This document shows positions 21,780-57,805 of a stretch of DNA of 64,000 nucleotides, piece by piece. A model generated the notes under the pieces. It saw only the letters and a program-made list of their open reading frames with translations. It was not told the origin of the DNA and did not search any database. Source of the DNA: Tepidamorphaceae bacterium. GTDB lineage: Bacteria; Pseudomonadota; Alphaproteobacteria; Rhizobiales; JAKSCL01. The position numbers were made by a program, and so were the translations under genes. The stretch is taken from the NCBI GenBank assembly GCA_028289445.1, contig JANQPO010000017.1, positions 413,537-477,536 on the forward strand. Reading direction: 5' to 3'. Numbering within the stretch: the stretch's first letter is position 1; the number at the start of each line of letters is the position of its first letter.

Positions 21780-21999
21780 CTTAGATCGGAATGCGTTCAA
21801 GTTGAATCATTCTCTTCATCGTCATCCCGGGCGCGGCGCAGCACTCCAGTGATGCGCCGCAGAACCGGGACTGCGTTGTCAACGACGCAGGTGGCCGACC
21901 TTGAAAGATCCCGGATCAGCGCAGCGGCATGTCATGCCGCAGCGCGTCCGGGATGACGCGTGAGGTAGGTGAGTAAACCTAATCTCATTCCGCTTTAGG
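21780..21999. repeat. Dispersed structured palindromic repeat, copy A (full length)
   Basis: A 220-bp element. Outer inverted arms CTTAGATCGGAATG (21780-21793) and CATTCCGCTTTAGG (21986-21999) enclose inner arms CGTCATCCCGG (21820-21830) and CCGGGATGACG (21948-21958). Inside are further stems such as GCGGCGCA/TGCGCCGC and GCGGCATG/ATGCCGC. The right outer arm contains the stop codon (21995-21997) of the leftward DUF899 gene. Related copies lie at 32104-32243 and 39630-39800. No coding capacity is seen. Confidence 0.8.
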
Positions 22000-30787: not shown

Positions 30788-32107
30788 GTGGACAGTCCAG
30801 TGGACTCTCGTGGACCGTCACTGTCGGAGTCCACCCGTGTGTGGGCGAAGATCGGGGTTCTGTCCTTCGGCGGACCGGCCGGTCAGATCGCCCTCATGCA
30901 TCGGATCGCCGTCGACGAAAAACGCTGGATTTCCGAACCGCGTTTTCTGCATGCGCTCAACTTCTGCATGCTTCTGCCGGGACCGGAAGCGCAGCAGCTC
31001 GCGACCTATATCGGCTGGCTGATGCACGGCTGGCGCGGCGGCATCATTGCCGGCACGCTATTCGTCCTTCCGGGGTTTTTCGTTATCCTCGCGCTAGCGC
31101 TTGCCTATGCTCTTTTGCAGGACACGGCGTTTGTCCCGAGTCTGTTCTTCGGACTGAAGGCGGCGGTGCTTGCCATCGTGCTGCAAGCGCTTTTGAAGAT
31201 CGCATCCCGTGCATTGATATCGCGCCTGTCCTGGGGGATCGCGGCGGCGGCCTTCATAGGCATCTTCGCCTTCGGCCTGCCGTTTCCGCTGATCGTGTTC
31301 GCGGCGGCGCTCTTCGGCTTGGCGATGTCGAAAGCCCTCGTCGATCCGATTGAGGAGAGCGCAAGCGAGGCGGAACCTGGGATCAGGACGGGACCGGCGC
31401 GCACGCTCCGTCTTATGGGAGTCTTCGGCGGTCTCTGGGCGGCGCCGATTGTTCTTGCCGGAAGCATCGCGGGCTGGGGCGACGTGTTCGCCCAGCTTGG
31501 CATCTTCATGTCGCAAATGGCGGTGGTCACCTTCGGTGGGGCCTATGCGGTTCTGGCCTATGTGGCGCAACAGGCGGTCGAGACCTTCGGCTGGCTGGAA
31601 CCGGGCGAGATGCTCGACGGTCTGGCGCTCGCCGAGACAACGCCGGGACCGCTGGTTTTGGTGCTGACCTTTGTCGGCGCGCTGGCGGCCTTTCGCGAGG
31701 CGACCGGCCTATCACCGGTCACGGCGGCCGTGCTCGGCGCCGCGATCGCGACATGGGTCACCTTCGTGCCCTGCTTCTTATGGATCTTTCTGGGCGCGCC
31801 CTACATGGAACGCCTGCGCGCCAATCGCCGGCTGGCCGGCGCGCTGGCGGCGATCACCGCGGCGGTCGTCGGCGTCATCCTCAACTTGGCGCTCTGGTTT
31901 GCCACCCACGCACTGTTTCGGTCGGTCGGCGTGCTTGCCACCGGGCCGTTCCACATGCTCTGGCCCGATGTCGCCAGCCTCGATCCGTGGGCGCTGGCGC
32001 TGTCGATCCTGGCAGTGATCCTGATCTTCGCCGCCCGGTTCGGGATGCTCTCGACACTGGCGATCTGCGGTGCGCTCGGAATTCTTGTCAGTGGCGCGAC
32101 CGGCTAG
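30788..32107 (+). CDS. chrA: Chromate transporter, long-chain ChrA type
   Basis: A 439-residue inner-membrane protein with two homologous halves, each with a GG(P/A)-type motif: LSFGGPAGQIALMHR near residue 25 and VTFGGAYAVLAYVAQQA near 245, and about ten to twelve membrane segments (EMLDGLALAETTPGPLVLVLTFVG in the second half). It exports chromate by proton exchange in characterised members. GTG start. No ChrB regulator nearby. The stop codon (32105-32107) lies inside the outer arm of repeat copy B. Confidence 0.9.
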   Translation: MDSPVDSRGPSLSESTRVWAKIGVLSFGGPAGQIALMHRIAVDEKRWISEPRFLHALNFCMLLPGPEAQQLATYIGWLMHGWRGGIIAGTLFVLPGFFVILALALAYALLQDTAFVPSLFFGLKAAVLAIVLQALLKIASRALISRLSWGIAAAAFIGIFAFGLPFPLIVFAAALFGLAMSKALVDPIEESASEAEPGIRTGPARTLRLMGVFGGLWAAPIVLAGSIAGWGDVFAQLGIFMSQMAVVTFGGAYAVLAYVAQQAVETFGWLEPGEMLDGLALAETTPGPLVLVLTFVGALAAFREATGLSPVTAAVLGAAIATWVTFVPCFLWIFLGAPYMERLRANRRLAGALAAITAAVVGVILNLALWFATHALFRSVGVLATGPFHMLWPDVASLDPWALALSILAVILIFAARFGMLSTLAICGALGILVSGATG

Positions 32108-32243
32108 AGCGGAATGGGATTGAGTCTGCTCACCTACCTTGCGCGTCTTCCCGGACGCGCTGCGGCGCTTCACCAAGGTGCTGCACCGCGCCCAGGATGA
32201 CGAAGTACGGGAACGATCTAATATGAACGCATTCCGGTCTAAG
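32104..32243. repeat. Dispersed structured palindromic repeat, copy B (short form, inverted orientation)
   Basis: 140 bp with outer arms CTAGAGCGGAATG (32104-32116) and CATTCCGGTCTAAG (32230-32243). The reverse complement matches copy A at both flanks and keeps only the first inner hairpin; the middle of the element is absent. The two outer arms contain the stop codons of the converging chrA (32105-32107) and oxoprolinase (32239-32241) genes. Confidence 0.75.
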
Positions 32244-35200
32244 CCGCGCCGTATCCCCCAGGCGTCGGCGTGAACACCGAGACCGTTTCGCCGGCCTCCA
32301 GCTCCGTCTGATCGCAGCCCTCAAGCTGCTCAATGGTGCCATCCAGCCGGCGCACGACCGTCTTGCCGACCTGGCCCGGTTCGCCGCCTTCAAGGCCGTG
32401 CGGCGGGATCTTGCGGTGTGAGCCCAAAATGGCGCACGACATCTTCTCCAAAAACCGCAACGACCGGATCGTGCCGTCGCCGGCCGTCCACTTGCCTTTG
32501 CCGCCCGTGCCCGGCCGAATGGAGAACTCCTCCAACAGGATCGGATACCGGACCTCCAACACTTCCGGGTCGGTCATGCGGGTGTTGGTCATGTGGGTGT
32601 GGACGCCCGACGTGCCGTTGAAGCCCGGACCCGCCGGCGAGCCGGAGCAGATGGTCTCATAGTTTTGATAGCGGTCATTGCCGTAGGTCAGATTGTTCAT
32701 CGAGCCTTGGGCACAGGCCATCGCGCCCAGCGCGCCGAGCAGACAGTTGGTGACGTGCTGGCTGGTCTCCGTGTTGCCGGCGACTACGGCCGCCGGATAT
32801 TGCGGCGACAGCATTGAGCCGTTCGGAATGACGATGTTGATTGGCCGCAGGCACCCGGCGTTCATCGGGATGTCGGTATCGACCATCAAACGGAAACAGT
32901 AGAGCACCGCCGCGCGGGTCACCGGCTCCGGTGCGTTGAAGTTCGTACCTTGCTGCGGCGAGGTGCCGGTGAAGTCGACGGTCGCCTCGCGCTTCGCCTT
33001 GTCGACGGTGATCTTCACCTTGATGACGGCGCCTTGGTCCGTCGGATATTCGAACTGGCTGTCCTTGAGCACATCCAAGACGCGGCGCACACTTTCGGCC
33101 GCATTGTCCTGGACGTGGCCCATATAGGCTTGCACCACGTCGAGCCCGAAATAGGCGATCATCTTGCGGACTTCCTGGACGCCCTTTTCGTTGGCGGCGA
33201 CCTGGGCCTTCATGTCGGCGATGTTGTTGTCCGGATTGCGCGCCGGCCAGGGGTGGTCGGTCAGGAGGGTGTGGAGCGCTTCCTCGCGGAAGCCGGTCTC
33301 GTCGACGAGCTTGAAGTTGTCGATCAGGACGCCTTCCTGCTCGACCGAGGTCGCGCGCGGGGTCGCTGAGCCGGGCGCCATGCCGCCGATATCGGCGTGG
33401 TGGCCGCGCGAGGCGACGTAAAAGAGGATCGCTTCTCCCGCTTCGTCGAAGACCGGGGTCACAACGGTAACGTCCGGCAGGTGGGTGCCGCCGTTGTAGG
33501 GGGCGTTCAGCATGTAAACGTCGCCGGGTTTGATCTTGCCCCGGTTCAGCTCGATGACGGTCTCGACCGACCGGTCCATGGACCCCAGGTGCACCGGCAT
33601 GTGCGGGGCATTGGCGACCAGCGCGCCGTTCGCGTCGAAGATGGCGCACGAAAAGTCGAGCCGTTCCTTGATGTTGACGGAATAGGCGGTGTTTTGCAGC
33701 GCCACGCCCATCTGCTCGGCAATCGACATGAAGAGATTGTTGAACACCTCCAGCATGACCGGATCGGCCTTCGTGCCGATCGCGGCGGCGCGGGGCAGGG
33801 GGATCACCCGGCGCAGGACGAGGTGATCCTTTGCGGTCAGTTCCGCCTGCCAGCCCGGCTCGACGACGATCGTCTGGTTCGGCTCGATGATGAGCGCCGG
33901 TCCGTCCACCCGGTGGCCTGGCGCCAATTGGGCACGGGTGAAGACGGCGGCATCCCGCCATTCTCCGCCGGTGAAGATCGGGCGCGTCGTGTCCGGTGAG
34001 GGCAGCGGGGCATCGGTCAGGGCCTGGTTGGGTTCGCTTAACGTCGATGCCGCATGGATCGTCTCGATCTCAAGGGCCTCGACCACGATCTCCTTGCCGG
34101 TGAAGACGAAGCCGAAGAGCTTCTTGTGCTGCGCCTCGAAGGCGGCGCGCATCTCGTCGACGGTGGCGAGCGGCACGGCCAGCGCCGTGTCGGTGCCGGC
34201 GTAGCGCAAATGGGCGCGGTCGAAGGTTTGCGTGTCGCCGGGCGCGATGTCCTGTTCCGCTAATTCCTCGCGGTTGGCGGCGGCCAGATCATCGGTAACG
34301 AAGGCGAGTTCGGTCATCACCGCCTCGGCCAACGGCTTTTCGACCGCCTTCGACCGGCTGGCCCGGATATCGGCCAGGCCCATGCCGTAGGCCGACAGCA
34401 GGCCGGACAGCGGGTGGATGATGACCGTCTCCATGCCGAGCGAGTCGGCAACCGCGCAGGCATGCTGCCCGCCGGCACCGCCGAAACAGGTGAGCGCGTA
34501 GTCTGTGACGTCATAGCCGCGCTGGACGGAGATCTTCTTGATCGCGTTCGCCATGTTTTCGACCGCGATCTGAAGGAAGCCCTCGGCGATCTCTTCCGCC
34601 GAACGCCCGTCTCCGATCTCTTTCGTCAAAGCGGCGAAGTGACCGGCGACCATATCGCGGTCGAGCGGTTGGTCCTGGTTCTGGCCGAAAATCGCTGGGA
34701 AGTAGTCGGGGAGAAGCTTGCCGACCATGACATTTGCGTCGGTGACGGCAAGCGGTCCGCCCTTGCGGTAGCACGCCGGGCCGGGGTGCGCGCCGGCCGA
34801 CTCCGGGCCGACCCGATAGCGCCCGTCCTCAAAGTAAAGGATCGAGCCGCCGCCGGCCGCGACAGTGTGGATGCGCATCATCGGCGCGCGCATGCGCACG
34901 CCGGCGACTTCGGTTTCGAACGCTCGTTCGTATTCGCCGTCATAGTGTGAGACGTCGGTAGACGTGCCACCCATGTCGAAGCCGATGATCTTCTCGAAGC
35001 TGGCCATTTTGGAGGTTTCGACCGCGCCGACCACGCCGCCGGCCGGACCGGACAGGATCGCGTCCTTGCCGCGAAACTGGTCGGCCGCCGTCAGGCCGCC
35101 GGACGACTGCATGAACATGAGCCTGGTGTCGCCGCCGCTGTCGGCGCCGAGCTTCGAGGCCACCCGGTCGACATAGCGTTTGAGGATCGGCGAGAGATAG

Positions 35201-35850
35201 GCGTCGACGACGGTCGTGTCGCCGCGCCCCACCAATTTCATCAGCGGCGACACTTCATGGCTGGTGGATATTTGCGTGAAGCCGATCTCGTGCGCCAGAG
35301 CGGCGACCTTCGCCTCATGCTCGGTATAGCGATAGGCGTGCATGAAGACGATGGCGACGGCGCGAATGCCGTCGTCGAAGGCGGCCTGGAGCGCGGTGCG
35401 GGCGTCGTCGAGATCGAGCGGTGTCTCGACCGTGCCGTCGACCATCACCCGTTCTTCGACCGCGTGAACGCGCTCGTAGAGCATGTCCGGCTTGATGATC
35501 TCGGTCGCGAAGATATAGGGCCGCGCCTGGTAGCCGATTTTGAGCGCGTCGTGGAAACCCCTGGTGATCATCAACAGGGTACGGTCGCCCTTGCGCTCCA
35601 AAAGCGCATTGGTGGCGACCGTGGTGCCCATTTTGACCGCGCCGATTTGGGTCGTCGGGATAGCGTCGTCGGACGGCGCATCCAGGAAGCGGCGAATGCC
35701 CTCGACCGCCGCGTCTTCATAGACACCGGGGTTCTCCGACAGGAGTTTCATCGGCGTGATTGCGCCGTCGGGTGCCCGCGCGACAACGTCGGTGAACGTG
35801 CCGCCCCGGTCGATCCAGAAATCCCAAGTGTTCGTTTGGAACGCCGTCAT
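32239..35850 (-). CDS. 5-oxoprolinase / hydantoinase A-B fusion
   Basis: Opens 5-oxo-L-proline to glutamate at the cost of ATP, or acts on related hydantoins. The 1203-residue protein contains, in order, a Hydant_A_N domain ([19 protein letters not shown] near residue 11), the ATPase-fold HyuA part ([19 protein letters not shown] near 295, [21 protein letters not shown]), and, from about residue 690, the HyuB part ([48 protein letters not shown]-like [12 protein letters not shown]). Full length for the fused OplAH type. Divergent MarR-like regulator upstream with a palindrome between. Confidence 0.92.
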
Positions 35851-38437: not shown

Positions 38438-39616
38438 ATGCGGAGCTTTTTTCTGGCCTTTGCCTTGGTGTTCGCCGCCGGGTTGCCGGCCGAGGCCGCC
38501 AGCTTCTCCCAATGCGTGGCCGGCTTGAAGAACGCGGCGATCAAAGCCGGTGTCAGTCGCGGGACGGTGCGCAAGGCGCTCGACGGCGCGAAGGAAAGCG
38601 AGAAGGTTCTTCGCTTCTCCCGCCAGCAGCCGGAATTCACAACGCCGATATGGGACTACATGGCCTTTTTGGTCGACGAACAGCGGGTCGCCGACGGCAA
38701 GCGGATGATGCGCAAGTATGATCGCGTCTTGCGGCGGGCGGAGAAGCAGTTCGGCGTCAATCGTTACGTGATTGCCGCTGTCTGGGGCGTTGAATCGGAT
38801 TACGGCCGCGAAACCGGCGACAACTTCCTGCCGCACGCGCTTGCGACCCTTGCCTGCAACAGTTCGAGACGCCGCGATTTCTGGCGCGGCGAGTTGATCG
38901 CGGCGCTCAAGATCGCCGATCGCGGCGAGATCCGCATGAAGGACCTCTACGGGTCTTGGGCGGGCGCCTTTGGCCAGACCCAGTTCATCCCCTCCACCTA
39001 TCTGCGGCTGGCCGTCGATTTCGACGGCGACGGGAAACGCGATCTGGTGAATTCGGCCGCCGATGCGCTGGGTTCGACCGCCAACTACTTGAAGAATGCC
39101 GGATGGCGGCGCGGCGAAACCTTCATGATCGAGGCGAAGGTCAAGCCCGGCTACAAAGGCCCCAGCGGCCGAAACAAGCGGTCAAGCCTTGGCACCTGGA
39201 CGCAGCGCGGTGTCACCAAGGCGGATGGGTCCAGGCTCTCCGGCGGCGGCTCGGCGGGCCTATTGCTGCCGGCCGGCCCGCGCGGACCGGCGTTCCTGGT
39301 GTTTCGCAATTTCAATGCGATTTATTCCTACAACAACGCGGAAACTTACGCGCTCGCCATCTCGCACCTAGCCGACCGCTTGGCTGGCTATCCGGCGCTG
39401 AGAACGTCCTGGCCAACCAACGATCCGGGCTTGTCGCGCGCTGAGCGGCTGCAGCTTCAAAAACTGCTTCTGGCGAACGGCTATGACATCGGCAAGGCCG
39501 ATGGAAAGATCGGCCCGATCACCAGGCGGGCGATTGCAGCCGCCGAGCGCAGTTATGGCATGAAGCCGACCGGACGGGCCGGGCGGACGATCTACCGCAA
39601 GCTCGGCGGCCGGTAA
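38438..39616 (+). CDS. Lytic murein transglycosylase, MltB family, with peptidoglycan-binding domain
   Basis: A 392-residue secreted enzyme with signal peptide (MRSFFLAFALVFAAGLPAEAA). Residues about 25-320 form the SLT-2 domain, with the catalytic Glu in VIAAVWGVESDYGRETG and AGAFGQTQFIPSTYLRLAVDFDGDGKRDL. Residues about 325-390 form a PG_binding_1 domain (LQKLLLANGYDIGKADGKIGPITRRAI). ATG 38438 follows GAAAGGG. Its product degrades peptidoglycan without water, forming 1,6-anhydro ends. Repeat copy C lies directly after the stop. Confidence 0.92.
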   Translation: MRSFFLAFALVFAAGLPAEAASFSQCVAGLKNAAIKAGVSRGTVRKALDGAKESEKVLRFSRQQPEFTTPIWDYMAFLVDEQRVADGKRMMRKYDRVLRRAEKQFGVNRYVIAAVWGVESDYGRETGDNFLPHALATLACNSSRRRDFWRGELIAALKIADRGEIRMKDLYGSWAGAFGQTQFIPSTYLRLAVDFDGDGKRDLVNSAADALGSTANYLKNAGWRRGETFMIEAKVKPGYKGPSGRNKRSSLGTWTQRGVTKADGSRLSGGGSAGLLLPAGPRGPAFLVFRNFNAIYSYNNAETYALAISHLADRLAGYPALRTSWPTNDPGLSRAERLQLQKLLLANGYDIGKADGKIGPITRRAIAAAERSYGMKPTGRAGRTIYRKLGGR

Positions 39617-39629
39617 CTAGCGCGAGCTT

Positions 39630-39800
39630 AAGTTTAATCACTCGCCACCTTCGTCATCCCGGGCGCGGTGCAGCACTTTGGTGATGTGCCGCAGAACCGG
39701 GATCGTGTTGTGGATGATGCGAGTGCCCGAACTCGAACGATCCCGGATCAGCGCGGCAGCATGTCGTGCTGCAGCGCGTCCGGGATGAGGGTTGGGTGAG
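39630..39800. repeat. Dispersed structured palindromic repeat, copy C
   Basis: Core 39652-39789 aligns with copy A (CGTCATCCCGGGCGCGG... to ...GCGTCCGGGATGA) with flanks also related (AAGTTTAATCA versus AAGTTGAATCA). Stems persist where the bases differ: GCAGCA/TGCTGC here against GCGGCA/TGCCGC in copy A, a paired substitution. Outer arms are degraded. It lies between the MltB and patatin genes, both of which end at it (convergent). Confidence 0.75.
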
Positions 39801-39810
39801 CAGAGCCGAC

Positions 39811-40650
39811 CTACTTGCCGAACTCCGAGAGTTTGGCATCGAGCGCGCGGCGCAGCTCGTCCTTGATCGGCTCGCTCGCCTTGAGAATGGCGCGGATACG
39901 GAAGAACTCCAGGACGCGAAAAGCATCGATGTTCGGCGTAAGCAGAATGTCGGGCGCGTTGGTCTTGAGGCGCTCCCGCGTGATCGTCCGCATCATCACC
40001 TGCGAAGTCCCGAACGCCAGGTCGACAGCCTTTGGAACCCGCGAGGCCTCGCCCTGCGGGCCGCCCACCACATCGACGGCAATCACGATATCCGCGTTCG
40101 CGCCGGCAATATCGATGGGTAAGGGGTTGGTCAGTCCGCCGTCGATCATGACGCGGCCATCGACGACGACCGGCCGAAAGAGAATGGGAATGGCGATCGA
40201 GGCGGCGATCGACGGGCGCAACGCCCCTTCGGTCAACGCCGCCGCGGTGCCGTCGTAGAAATCAGATGCGACGGCCGTGAACGCCGTGGGTAGGTCTTCA
40301 ATCGTCTTTGGAAGCTGGTCCGGCAGGAAGAGGTCGACGATGCGCTCCGCGTTGAGCTGTAGCGAGACGCCGCTGAAGCCGGATACCAAATCGCCGAACG
40401 AGCGCGGGCGTTGGTCCCAGATGCGCGCCAAAACGGCGCTCCGGTCGGAAAAGAGGTCCTGCGCGTAGGCACGGATCTCCTTGCCGGACATACCGCCGGC
40501 ATAGCCAGCGCCGATGAAGGCGCCAATGGACGTGCCGGCGACAACCGACGGGGTGATATCGAACTCGTCAAGCACTTCCAGCACGGGGATATGCGCCAAG
40601 CCGCGGGCGCCGCCGCCGCCAAGGGCCAATCCGATGCGCGGGCCGCTCAT
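39811..40650 (-). CDS. Patatin-like phospholipase
   Basis: A 279-residue serine acyl hydrolase of the RssA/patatin type: oxyanion loop GLALGGGGARGLAHIPVLEVLDEF, nucleophile elbow GTSIGAFIGAGYAGG (Ser in G-x-S-x-G) and the catalytic Asp in MIDGGLTNPLPIDIA. Last gene of the operon beginning with purD; overlaps the preceding phosphotransferase gene by 4 bases. Confidence 0.92.
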   Translation of the reverse strand: MSGPRIGLALGGGGARGLAHIPVLEVLDEFDITPSVVAGTSIGAFIGAGYAGGMSGKEIRAYAQDLFSDRSAVLARIWDQRPRSFGDLVSGFSGVSLQLNAERIVDLFLPDQLPKTIEDLPTAFTAVASDFYDGTAAALTEGALRPSIAASIAIPILFRPVVVDGRVMIDGGLTNPLPIDIAGANADIVIAVDVVGGPQGEASRVPKAVDLAFGTSQVMMRTITRERLKTNAPDILLTPNIDAFRVLEFFRIRAILKASEPIKDELRRALDAKLSEFGK

Positions 40651-55123: not shown

Positions 55124-55804
55124 ATGCGCAGCCTGAAAGAGATCGAAGCCCTGGCCGCCGAGCGTCACGGCGGCGCCAAGGCGCTGGCCGCGCGCCTGGC
55201 GGAGTTCGACGCGAGCCAGCCCGAACACCCTGAAAAACGCCCGGACGATCGCTGGCTGTCGACTTTCACGCGGTTCGTCTTCAGCGCCGGCTTCAACTGG
55301 AAGGTGATCGAGACCAAGTGGCCGGGTTTCGAGGAGGCTTTCGAAGGCTTCGAGCCCAGGCGTTGGGCAATGATGTCGGACGATGATCTGGACAGCCTGG
55401 TCAAGGATACGCGGATCGTGCGCCATGCCGGCAAGATCCTTTCCGTGCGCGACAATGCGATCTTCTTGCGCGATCTGGCGGAGGAGCATGGGAAGCCGGC
55501 GGGCGCCGTGCTCGGTACCTGGCCGCAGACCGATTACTTCGGCCTTCTCCGGCTCTTGAAGGAGCGTGGCAACCGGCTAGGCGGCAATTCCGCGACCTAT
55601 GCCTTGCGACAGCTCGGCGTCGAGTCGTTCATCCTCTCCCGGGATGTCGTGGCAGCGCTGGTCCGCGATGGCGTGGTCGACAAGCCGCCGACCGGCAAGG
55701 CGGCGCAAAAGAAAGTTCAGGAGGCGCTGAACGCTTGGATGGACGAAAGCGGCCACGGCCTGTCGCGCATTTCGCGGACGCTGGCGCTGTCGATCGATGC
55801 TTAG
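55124..55804 (+). CDS. DNA-3-methyladenine glycosylase I-like protein
   Basis: A 226-residue helix-hairpin-helix protein of the Tag superfamily: LSTFTRFVFSAGFNWKVIETKWPGFEEAFEGFEP (the family W-K-x-x-x-x-K motif), KDTRIVRHAGKILSVRDNAIFL and LLKERGNRLGGNSATYALRQLG. Zinc-site cysteines of E. coli Tag are not seen. The last 39 codons and 25 bases beyond belong to a 142-bp sequence repeated at 57664-57805. A ribosome binding site AAGGGGAG precedes the ATG. Confidence 0.8.
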   Translation: MRSLKEIEALAAERHGGAKALAARLAEFDASQPEHPEKRPDDRWLSTFTRFVFSAGFNWKVIETKWPGFEEAFEGFEPRRWAMMSDDDLDSLVKDTRIVRHAGKILSVRDNAIFLRDLAEEHGKPAGAVLGTWPQTDYFGLLRLLKERGNRLGGNSATYALRQLGVESFILSRDVVAALVRDGVVDKPPTGKAAQKKVQEALNAWMDESGHGLSRISRTLALSIDA

Positions 55805-55829
55805 GGCGTCGAGGGCCGCTTAGAGCCGA
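55688..55829 (+). repeat. Direct repeat, left copy (3' end of the Tag-like gene)
   Basis: 142 bp, identical to 57664-57805 except for two C/T differences, both at third positions of AAC/AAT and CAC/CAT codons. It covers the last 39 codons, the stop and 25 bases beyond. The composition drops sharply immediately to its right, at 55830. Confidence 0.95.
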
Positions 55830-57663: not shown

Positions 57664-57780
57664 CCGACCGGCAAGGCGGCGCAAAAGAAAGTTCAGGAGG
57701 CGCTGAATGCTTGGATGGACGAAAGCGGCCATGGCCTGTCGCGCATTTCGCGGACGCTGGCGCTGTCGATCGATGCTTAG
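57664..57780 (+). pseudogene. Orphan 3' fragment of the Tag-like glycosylase gene
   Basis: The last 39 codons of the Tag-like gene (PTGKAAQKKVQEALNAWMDE... to LSIDA and TAG) with no upstream part in frame. No start codon or ribosome binding site. It is the original or incoming gene end left by the event that created the islet. The following 57806-57984 is non-coding. Confidence 0.85.
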
Positions 57781-57805
57781 GGCGTCGAGGGCCGCTTAGA
57801 GCCGA
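57664..57805 (+). repeat. Direct repeat, right copy
   Basis: Second copy of the 142-bp sequence at 55688-55829 (140 of 142 identical). Contains the gene-end fragment 57664-57780 listed separately. Confidence 0.95.

Follow-up and report, generated by a model that had tools for sequence, protein, structure and literature searches.

Three copies of a palindromic repeat, here called A, B and C, lie in a 64,000-nucleotide stretch of the genome of a Tepidamorphaceae bacterium (the window, G000:C18:413537-477536, from the 26 contigs and 3.95 Mb of genome G000), and across that genome the ends of the repeat often coincide with the stop codons of the flanking genes. Sequence comparison suggests that the repeat is a non-autonomous, formerly mobile palindromic element that inserted, with duplication of its target, into YTAR sites ([CT]TA[AG]) that are often stop codons, a reading whose probability we put at roughly 0.57. 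A preliminary description of the window had the outer arms of the repeat provide stop codons to neighbouring genes; the direction is probably the reverse. Because stops at the element's ends are in excess in one reading frame, flanking proteins with an informative family model have complete C-termini and a relative holds an empty CTAG in which two stops overlap, the genes' own stops would be the duplicated insertion site, and the element seems to have targeted the stop codon and not to have brought it along.

Stop codons at the ends of the repeat

The full-length unit measures about 215 bp and consists of a CGTC-tagged double palindrome enclosed by imperfect outer arms, with ends that read YTAR-ANCGGAATGAG...CTCATTCCGNT-YTAR. 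As the preliminary description had suggested, the whole genome was scanned with a profile and the stops were counted against expectation. A covariance model (R1) trained on 16 full-length copies returned 79 rows. Manual merging reduced these to 42 places, which include copies A, B and C; 40 of the 42 had E <= 0.01 and the last two lay near chance level. Used as a BLAST query, copy A with its flanks found 46 matches in the same genome. Stop placement was counted at the 37 places that scored 60 bits or more. Flanking gene ends were measured relative to the end of the R1 match, so that a stop at +4 occupies element bases 2-4. Among the five weaker places left out of the counts, C8:332714 has a stop at +4 and the other four (C5:10336, C1:64255, C8:305684 and C26:26456) do not.

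The earlier claim that these elements sit at gene 3′ ends, with stops in their outer ends, holds genome-wide. The spacers of 28 copies were convergent, nine were tandem and none was divergent; the convergent share contrasts with 33 of 244 background spacers (p 2e-14), which were taken from 300 kb of the same genome in fifteen 20-kb stretches picked by position. At 28 of the 65 flanking 3′ ends the stop fell exactly on element bases 2-4, and at two it fell one base further, one of these being copy C, where the stop merely abuts its CTAG. The frame is specific as well: among 36 stops within the element, 28 were at +4 against one third expected (p 6e-8), and one was at the TGA of +14. Most of the tetramers at the 28 exact stops were YTAR (24, comprising CTAG 12, TTAG 6, CTAA 5 and TTAA 1), the remaining four being TTGA, CTGA, GTAG and ATAG. 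Both runs of the gene caller gave five copies, including B, with a +4 stop at each end, and in three of the five both of these stops are YTAR. After retraining, the caller gave 30 convergent and seven tandem spacers, with 29 of 67 ends at +4 and two more one base further.

These coincidences exceed what the share of stops among background YTAR sites would give. An exact YTAR stop occurred at an end of 21 of the 37 copies, with eroded-end copies scored as misses, compared to 59 of 196 background YTAR sites in convergent and tandem spacers (p 7e-4), and within convergent spacers the figures were 17 of 28 copies and 15 of 48 sites (p 0.001). A less strict tally, in which 25 of 37 copies bore a stop (p 3e-6), was dropped, since it included TGA, non-YTAR stops and copy C.

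The proteins that end at these stops seem intact wherever a model is informative. Twenty of the 31 proteins with such stops were submitted to a model-match test, and family models matched eleven of them up to the C-terminal end. The match reached the last model position in pyruvate carboxylase (1143/1143), TruA (228/228), adenine deaminase (552/552) and CobT (334/334), and nearly so in enolase (422/425), phosphoglycolate phosphatase (Gph, 212/213), Hydantoinase_B (518/519), GDH_C (338/339), GCV_T_C (78/80), PfkB (300/302) and a methylguanine methyltransferase domain (80/81). Reach was shorter for DUF899 (to 211/224) and AA_permease_2 (to 401/427); one of the 20 had no NCBIfam match, and the rest belonged to broad families or domains that are less informative on C-termini. 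In alignments, three genes on locus L127 end within a few residues of their counterparts in G001 and other relatives.

The terminal tetramers themselves may carry a trace of target duplication. Both arms could be scored in 23 copies, and left and right tetramers were identical in 7 of these, compared to 3.0 in shuffles (p 0.01), and when only recognisable tetramers were kept, a filter set afterwards, in 7 of 18 (3.1 shuffled, p 0.009). All four pairs that are non-palindromic on both sides (TTAG or CTAA) are direct repeats and none is inverted, so duplication fits and an inverted arm does not. The duplication may span 4 bp or TA alone; the four-base direct repeats fit slightly better.

A candidate empty site was found for copy C1:153486, which lies between the converging truA and a membrane-protein gene. 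This pair converges without the element in 5 of the 10 relatives whose locus was compared, and in G016 the two stops overlap in a single CTAG (-4), with no element present, which is the predicted empty site. By coordinates, subtracting the element and one tetramer from G000 leaves the same -4 overlap. The 300-kb sample of the own genome likewise contains two YTAR sites that carry a double stop and no element.

Other loci were less informative. For copy B, no oxoprolinase homologue (E <= 1e-10) faced chrA among the 80 chrA loci kept; such homologues occurred in two of these loci, downstream on the same strand, and contig ends shorten some loci. The best relatives of the chrA protein among these 80 were Rhodobiaceae and Tepidamorphaceae metagenome-assembled genomes at 70-71% identity, which suggests that the genome belongs to the Hyphomicrobiales. 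Among the relatives listed, none was of the same genus and one, G001, was of the same family. The gene ends beside the three copies on L127 align with relatives, but the spacers are too diverged for an empty site to be located to the base.

In the scheme we propose, the element would be a dimer resembling repetitive extragenic palindromes (REPs), CGTC-tagged and set within imperfect terminal inverted arms. It would insert into a four-base YTAR, often Y-TAA or Y-TAG on either strand, and duplicate the site. Since YTAR stays YTAR on either strand, the overlapping stops of converging genes could share one, and insertion with duplication at a shared YTAR would give each gene a stop of its own and leave both proteins unaltered. 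Copies would then be kept at gene 3′ ends, chiefly between closely packed gene pairs that converge, and there the structure, once transcribed, could serve as an RNA 3′-end barrier or a two-way insulator. On each of the two strands, long paired RNA directly after the stop could shield 3′ ends, halt head-on polymerases or slow ribosomes. Past transposition, the 4-bp duplication, the loss or absence of a transposase and any RNA function are what we infer from these patterns.

Structure of the repeat and its copies in the window

From the outside inward, the left half of the element consists of YTAR, the arm ANCGGAATGAG, about 25 bases, CGTCATCCCGG, a hairpin and then the middle stem, after which the right half continues with a second hairpin, CCGGGATGACG, about 25 bases, CTCATTCCGNT and YTAR. 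Terminal inverted repeats are present and form helix 1 of the fold, which has 17 pairs and is paired in 75.9% of its cells. The CGTC tag adjoins a stem starting A-T in CGTCATCCCGG ... CCGGGATGACG, in conserved columns of the alignment of 16 copies. The two units are oppositely oriented, with GACG at the far end, and reverse-strand R1 matches fall on the same places. Internal deletion shrinks some copies to about 130 bp, copy B among them. In general description the family can be likened to RIME/BOX-type repeats, which are interspersed, palindromic and intergenic. Rfam gave no match above the gathering score in the window.

Copy A (21781-21998, plus strand; G000:C18:435317-435534; 232 bits with R1) is full-length, with both YTAR ends and a TTAG direct repeat at its two extremities. 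Its left TTAG (21781-21784, plus strand) is a putative target-site duplication; the stop of the left gene lies elsewhere, 62 bp upstream. The right TTAG (21995-21998, plus strand) is CTAA on the minus strand, where it holds the TAA stop (21995-21997) of a gene with the Pfam name DUF899, as the preliminary description had noted. The CGTC-tagged double-palindrome core of this copy, CGTCATCCCGG ... CCGGGATGACG, occupies 21820-21958 of the plus strand, as judged from sequence, conserved columns and fold.

Copy B (32104-32242, minus strand; 84.9 bits with R1) lies between the converging chrA and oxoprolinase genes, and its plus-strand ends are CTAG on the left and CTAA on the right. Each end carries a stop codon, and here too the earlier observation was borne out. 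The TAG of the chromate-transporter gene (30788/30800-32107, with a Chromate_transp match) falls at 32105-32107 of the plus strand, within the left CTAG, and the TAG of the hydantoinase/oxoprolinase gene (32239-35850, the Hydantoinase_B match to position 518/519 given above) falls at 32239-32241 of the minus strand, within the right CTAA. The inner arms of copy B read CGTCTTCCCGG and CCCAGGATGACG and differ somewhat from CGTCATCCCGG and CCGGGATGACG.

Copy C (39617-39826, plus strand; 174.5 bits with R1, model span 39612-39826) has eroded ends, its end being the limit of the match and not a sharp boundary. The TAA stop of its left gene (39614-39616) adjoins the CTAG and lies outside it, and the stop of its right gene (39811-39813, minus strand) lies within the eroded right arm. 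The three copies are thus related and located as first described, but the common plan attributed to them is incomplete, since C is without intact outer arms and B is internally deleted.

Predicted folds are strong in copy A (-116 kcal/mol, z -7.9) and in the copy at locus L011 (z -9.2), with copy B at z -4.6 (-4.62). In a comparison with 500 shuffles, where kinship of the copies can raise scores without structure and the fold was derived from one aligned sequence, the L011 fold exceeded all 500 in cells paired (83.9 vs 82.8%, a narrow margin), in cells changed on both sides (29 vs 15.5) and in covariation score (0.133 vs 0.113). It exceeded 495 of the 500 in pairs with two-sided change (19 vs 12.2) and 464 in further pair types (62 vs 57.5), and slid structures had much lower scores. 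Of the 43 pairs in the RNAalifold structure, six changed on both sides, and the covariation term was +0.45. Covariation among the copies appears modest. The idea that compensating changes point to selection on structure accordingly finds modest support, which the relatedness of the copies may inflate, and the pair cited in its favour (GCGGCA/TGCCGC versus GCAGCA/TGCTGC) is poor evidence: it is G-C in nine, A-T in two and unpaired A-C in five of the 16 aligned copies.

Two copies are mosaic, continuing at one end into another palindrome (L003:1481-1520 and L021:1680-1724, both in the own genome); at L021 this palindrome reads GCATGGTCCCGAAAAGTGC...TTTTCGG...CATGCTC.

Insertion at stops weighed against other explanations

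Several observations weigh against insertion into stops by a formerly mobile element. The own genome had no match to PF13358, PF01609, PF01797, PF13340 or PF13586, the only five transposase families tried. Tetramers differ in 11 of the 18 recognisable pairs, and there is no association when tetramer position 4 is considered by itself (10 of 18, p 0.41). The empty site with overlapping stops comes from one locus only, in a genome from another family of the order. Elsewhere the truA junction varies, with the genes 8 bases apart in G014, overlapping by 31 in G007 and separated by spacers of 113 in G001 and 125 in G013; TruA tail length also varies among the genomes compared, and the stop has moved in evolution. 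In tandem spacers exact YTAR stops show no significant excess (4 of 9 copies vs 44 of 148 sites, p 0.26). All gene ends come from a home-made coding-potential caller trained on 131 open reading frames (ORFs) and retrained on 260. Finally, in G035, where the cores lack the arms, 20 places have between them 12 gene 3′ ends at a distance of 2-15 bases from the core.

A more specific form of the proposal is tentative. Integration may be steered to stops, above all to overlapping convergent ones, by YTAR plus a further cue, with the duplication supplying each gene's stop; the cue itself might be 3′-end transcription, a terminating ribosome or R-loop, or neighbouring sequence. If true, such steering would be a built-in safe-site strategy that lets an element spread in a gene-dense genome with proteins unchanged.

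The element could instead be an ordinary YTAR-targeting miniature inverted-repeat transposable element (MITE) or REP that is indifferent to stops and has been purged from operons and promoters, where a strong hairpin would be polar, so that copies at 3′ ends remain; we consider this possible, if rather doubtful. The absence of all 37 copies from divergent spacers agrees with purging, and according to the available portions of two reports (PMC10359306, PMC2266754) known IS5-type elements use YTAR as their site. The arm-less cores of G035 are likewise close to 3′ ends, as the accessible text on CGTC-1 REPs also describes, and 3′-end nearness therefore needs no YTAR arms. Nevertheless, purging does not account for the over-use of exact YTAR stops within convergent spacers (17 of 28 vs 15 of 48, p 0.001; tandem 4 of 9, not significant). 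It is also at odds with a second MITE-like family of the same genome, none of whose six copies is convergent, and therefore neither site nor general purging sends every such repeat to converging ends.

An element without recent mobility, selected as a 3′-end module (a two-way terminator, mRNA stabiliser or ribosome-slowing hairpin) and spread from one gene end to another by recombination or conversion, is unlikely. The convergent bias, the strong folds and the three pair measures above all 500 shuffles would suit such a role, as would the different palindromic sequence at the truA junction of G001. Ribosomes are reported to stall at Escherichia coli REPs that lie within 15 nucleotides of a stop, in the parts available of two publications (PMC5082802, PMC12306157). 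However, intrinsic terminators (a G+C-rich stem followed by a T run) numbered zero around A and zero around B, the two copies scanned, and the sharp ends, tetramer repeats and internally deleted copies resemble insertion. The G001 sequence (GTGTCCAGGAAAAGTGGGCACCGATTTTCC..., L260, about 2478-2596), which fills the junction there, fits either tolerance or use of a palindrome at that place.

Quite improbable, lastly, are portable stops, by which insertion would be random near gene ends and the element's own TAG would terminate genes whose lengths were then adjusted to fit: the element's ends can indeed be read as stops, and in the accessible text of one study GTAG REPs are said to often give TAG to ORFs (PMC3733652), but a random frame predicts roughly equal use of +4 and of the TGA at +14 (seen 28, plus two at +5, vs 1), proteins with an informative model retain their C-terminal ends, and with TAA in 7 and TGA in 2 of the 30 stops at +4 or +5 the conserved thing is a stop, not the element's TAG.

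Relation to known repeats and to other genomes

The closest described repeats are the CGTC REPs. The accessible text of Di Nocera et al. 2013 (PMC3733652) defines them by CGTC next to a stem starting A-T and describes them as mostly alphaproteobacterial, forming dimers of opposite units, predominantly between converging or tandem ORFs, with no known transposase. In Sphingomonas wittichii most REPs between converging genes (conv-REPs) lie <=20 bp from both 3′ ends, in Halothiobacillus neapolitanus all CGTC-1 dimers lie within a 41-bp palindrome, and the described loops have 4-5 nucleotides, with deviating loops in Bradyrhizobium CGTC-1, while a short unpaired tail of CCA type is given as a further trait of CGTC elements; the stop-codon remark in the text available concerns GTAG REPs, which give TAG to ORFs, and not CGTC REPs (PMC3733652). 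Our element shares with those dimers the tag, the A-T-starting stem, the opposite units and the 3′-end siting, and it too lacks a dedicated transposase among the five families tried in its own genome. Its left-unit stem has seven pairs (columns 46-52 with 88-94) and its right-unit stem eight (136-143 with 175-182), where the CGTC REP definition has 8-9 bp. In contrast to CGTC REPs as far as the accessible text describes them, its loops in L011 are 34 and 31 nucleotides long, each with a hairpin of its own, against 4-5, its outer arms are of other sequence, its YTAR ends often lie exactly on stops, and it has tetramer direct repeats. Because loop length differs, we regard it as a relative of the four CGTC families described so far and place it outside them.

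IS711 of Brucella is an IS5-type insertion sequence (IS). In the available parts of the relevant reports, IS5 has YTAR as target-site duplication (PMC10359306), and IS711, itself alphaproteobacterial, has a YTAR target, duplicates TA and prefers Bru-RS palindromic repeats (PMC2266754). The putative YTAR target and the terminal inverted arms of our element are like those reported for IS5-type ISs and MITEs, whereas its stop-codon and convergent bias is not, and neither a transposase gene of the families tried nor a parental IS was found. An autonomous IS5-type relative with the same ends was sought in the own genome, with no match to PF01609, PF13340 or PF13586. IS630/Tc1-mariner elements target CTAG and duplicate TA; an origin from them was rejected because the own genome has no PF13358. 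A GTAG REP or REPIN (a paired REP) moved by a REP-associated tyrosine transposase (RAYT) was also rejected, as the element ends in YTAR and the Y1 transposase PF01797 is absent from the own genome. A search for the pattern of the ends gave 37 places, 24 at known copies; the other 13 are no more than the 16 of the control. In the accessible text on Bradyrhizobium (PMC5082802), Br-REP2 contains CCGGAATGA, which resembles the CGGAATGAG of the element's arm, while the cores of Br-REP1 and Br-REP2 are unlike the element's and stop-codon placement is not mentioned. A literature search for bacterial MITEs that target stop codons or CTAG/YTAR, and for similar repeats, found nothing closer, with most subscription journals outside its reach.

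What is already published, within the available text of PMC3733652, is that CGTC dimers occur at converging 3′ ends and in longer palindromes and that GTAG REPs supply TAG. What seems new is that ends and stops coincide exactly, as tested by frame, that the tetramers are repeated and that a relative has overlapping stops which stand empty of the element. Bacterial genomes have little spare DNA, so that a repeat's fate depends on where it can land harmlessly, and a four-base target that keeps its class on both strands and is often a stop would explain in simple molecular terms why REP-like repeats are reported to accumulate at gene 3′ ends. The pattern also becomes testable, with empty sites, target duplications and fresh insertions predictable to the base, and it offers a lead on possible movement of CGTC repeats, for which the text cited knows no transposase.

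No full element turned up outside the own genome when 397 genomes of the order were sampled; matches occurred in 15 of them, the own genome included. In the 14 others the listed matches were confined to the core (query 37-182), with at most two candidates per genome scored. R1 had matches in 8 of 61 genomes, again including the own. Cores without YTAR arms were convergent at one of 21 copies examined in G050 and at five of 20 in G035, with genes called after training on just 34 and 41 ORFs, respectively, and several calls overlapping the repeat. The loci in these two genomes (L146-L185) carry CGTC/CGTG-type double palindromes, about 20 or more copies per genome, and G050 has five Y1 transposase matches.

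The second MITE-like family of the own genome is about 270 bp long, with TA/CTAG-type ends (TAGGGTCAGGAC...GTCCTGACCCTA) and copies 89-94% alike, one of them at L127:9527-9802. Of the six copies examined (L127, L270, L271, L272, L273 and L274), four are tandem and two divergent, and a stop lies at +3 or +4 of the edge in two. The window also holds a 142-bp direct repeat, 99% identical, at 55688-55829 and 57664-57805; the first copy covers the end of a called gene, the second is intergenic 2 kb further on, and the pair looks like a recent duplication.
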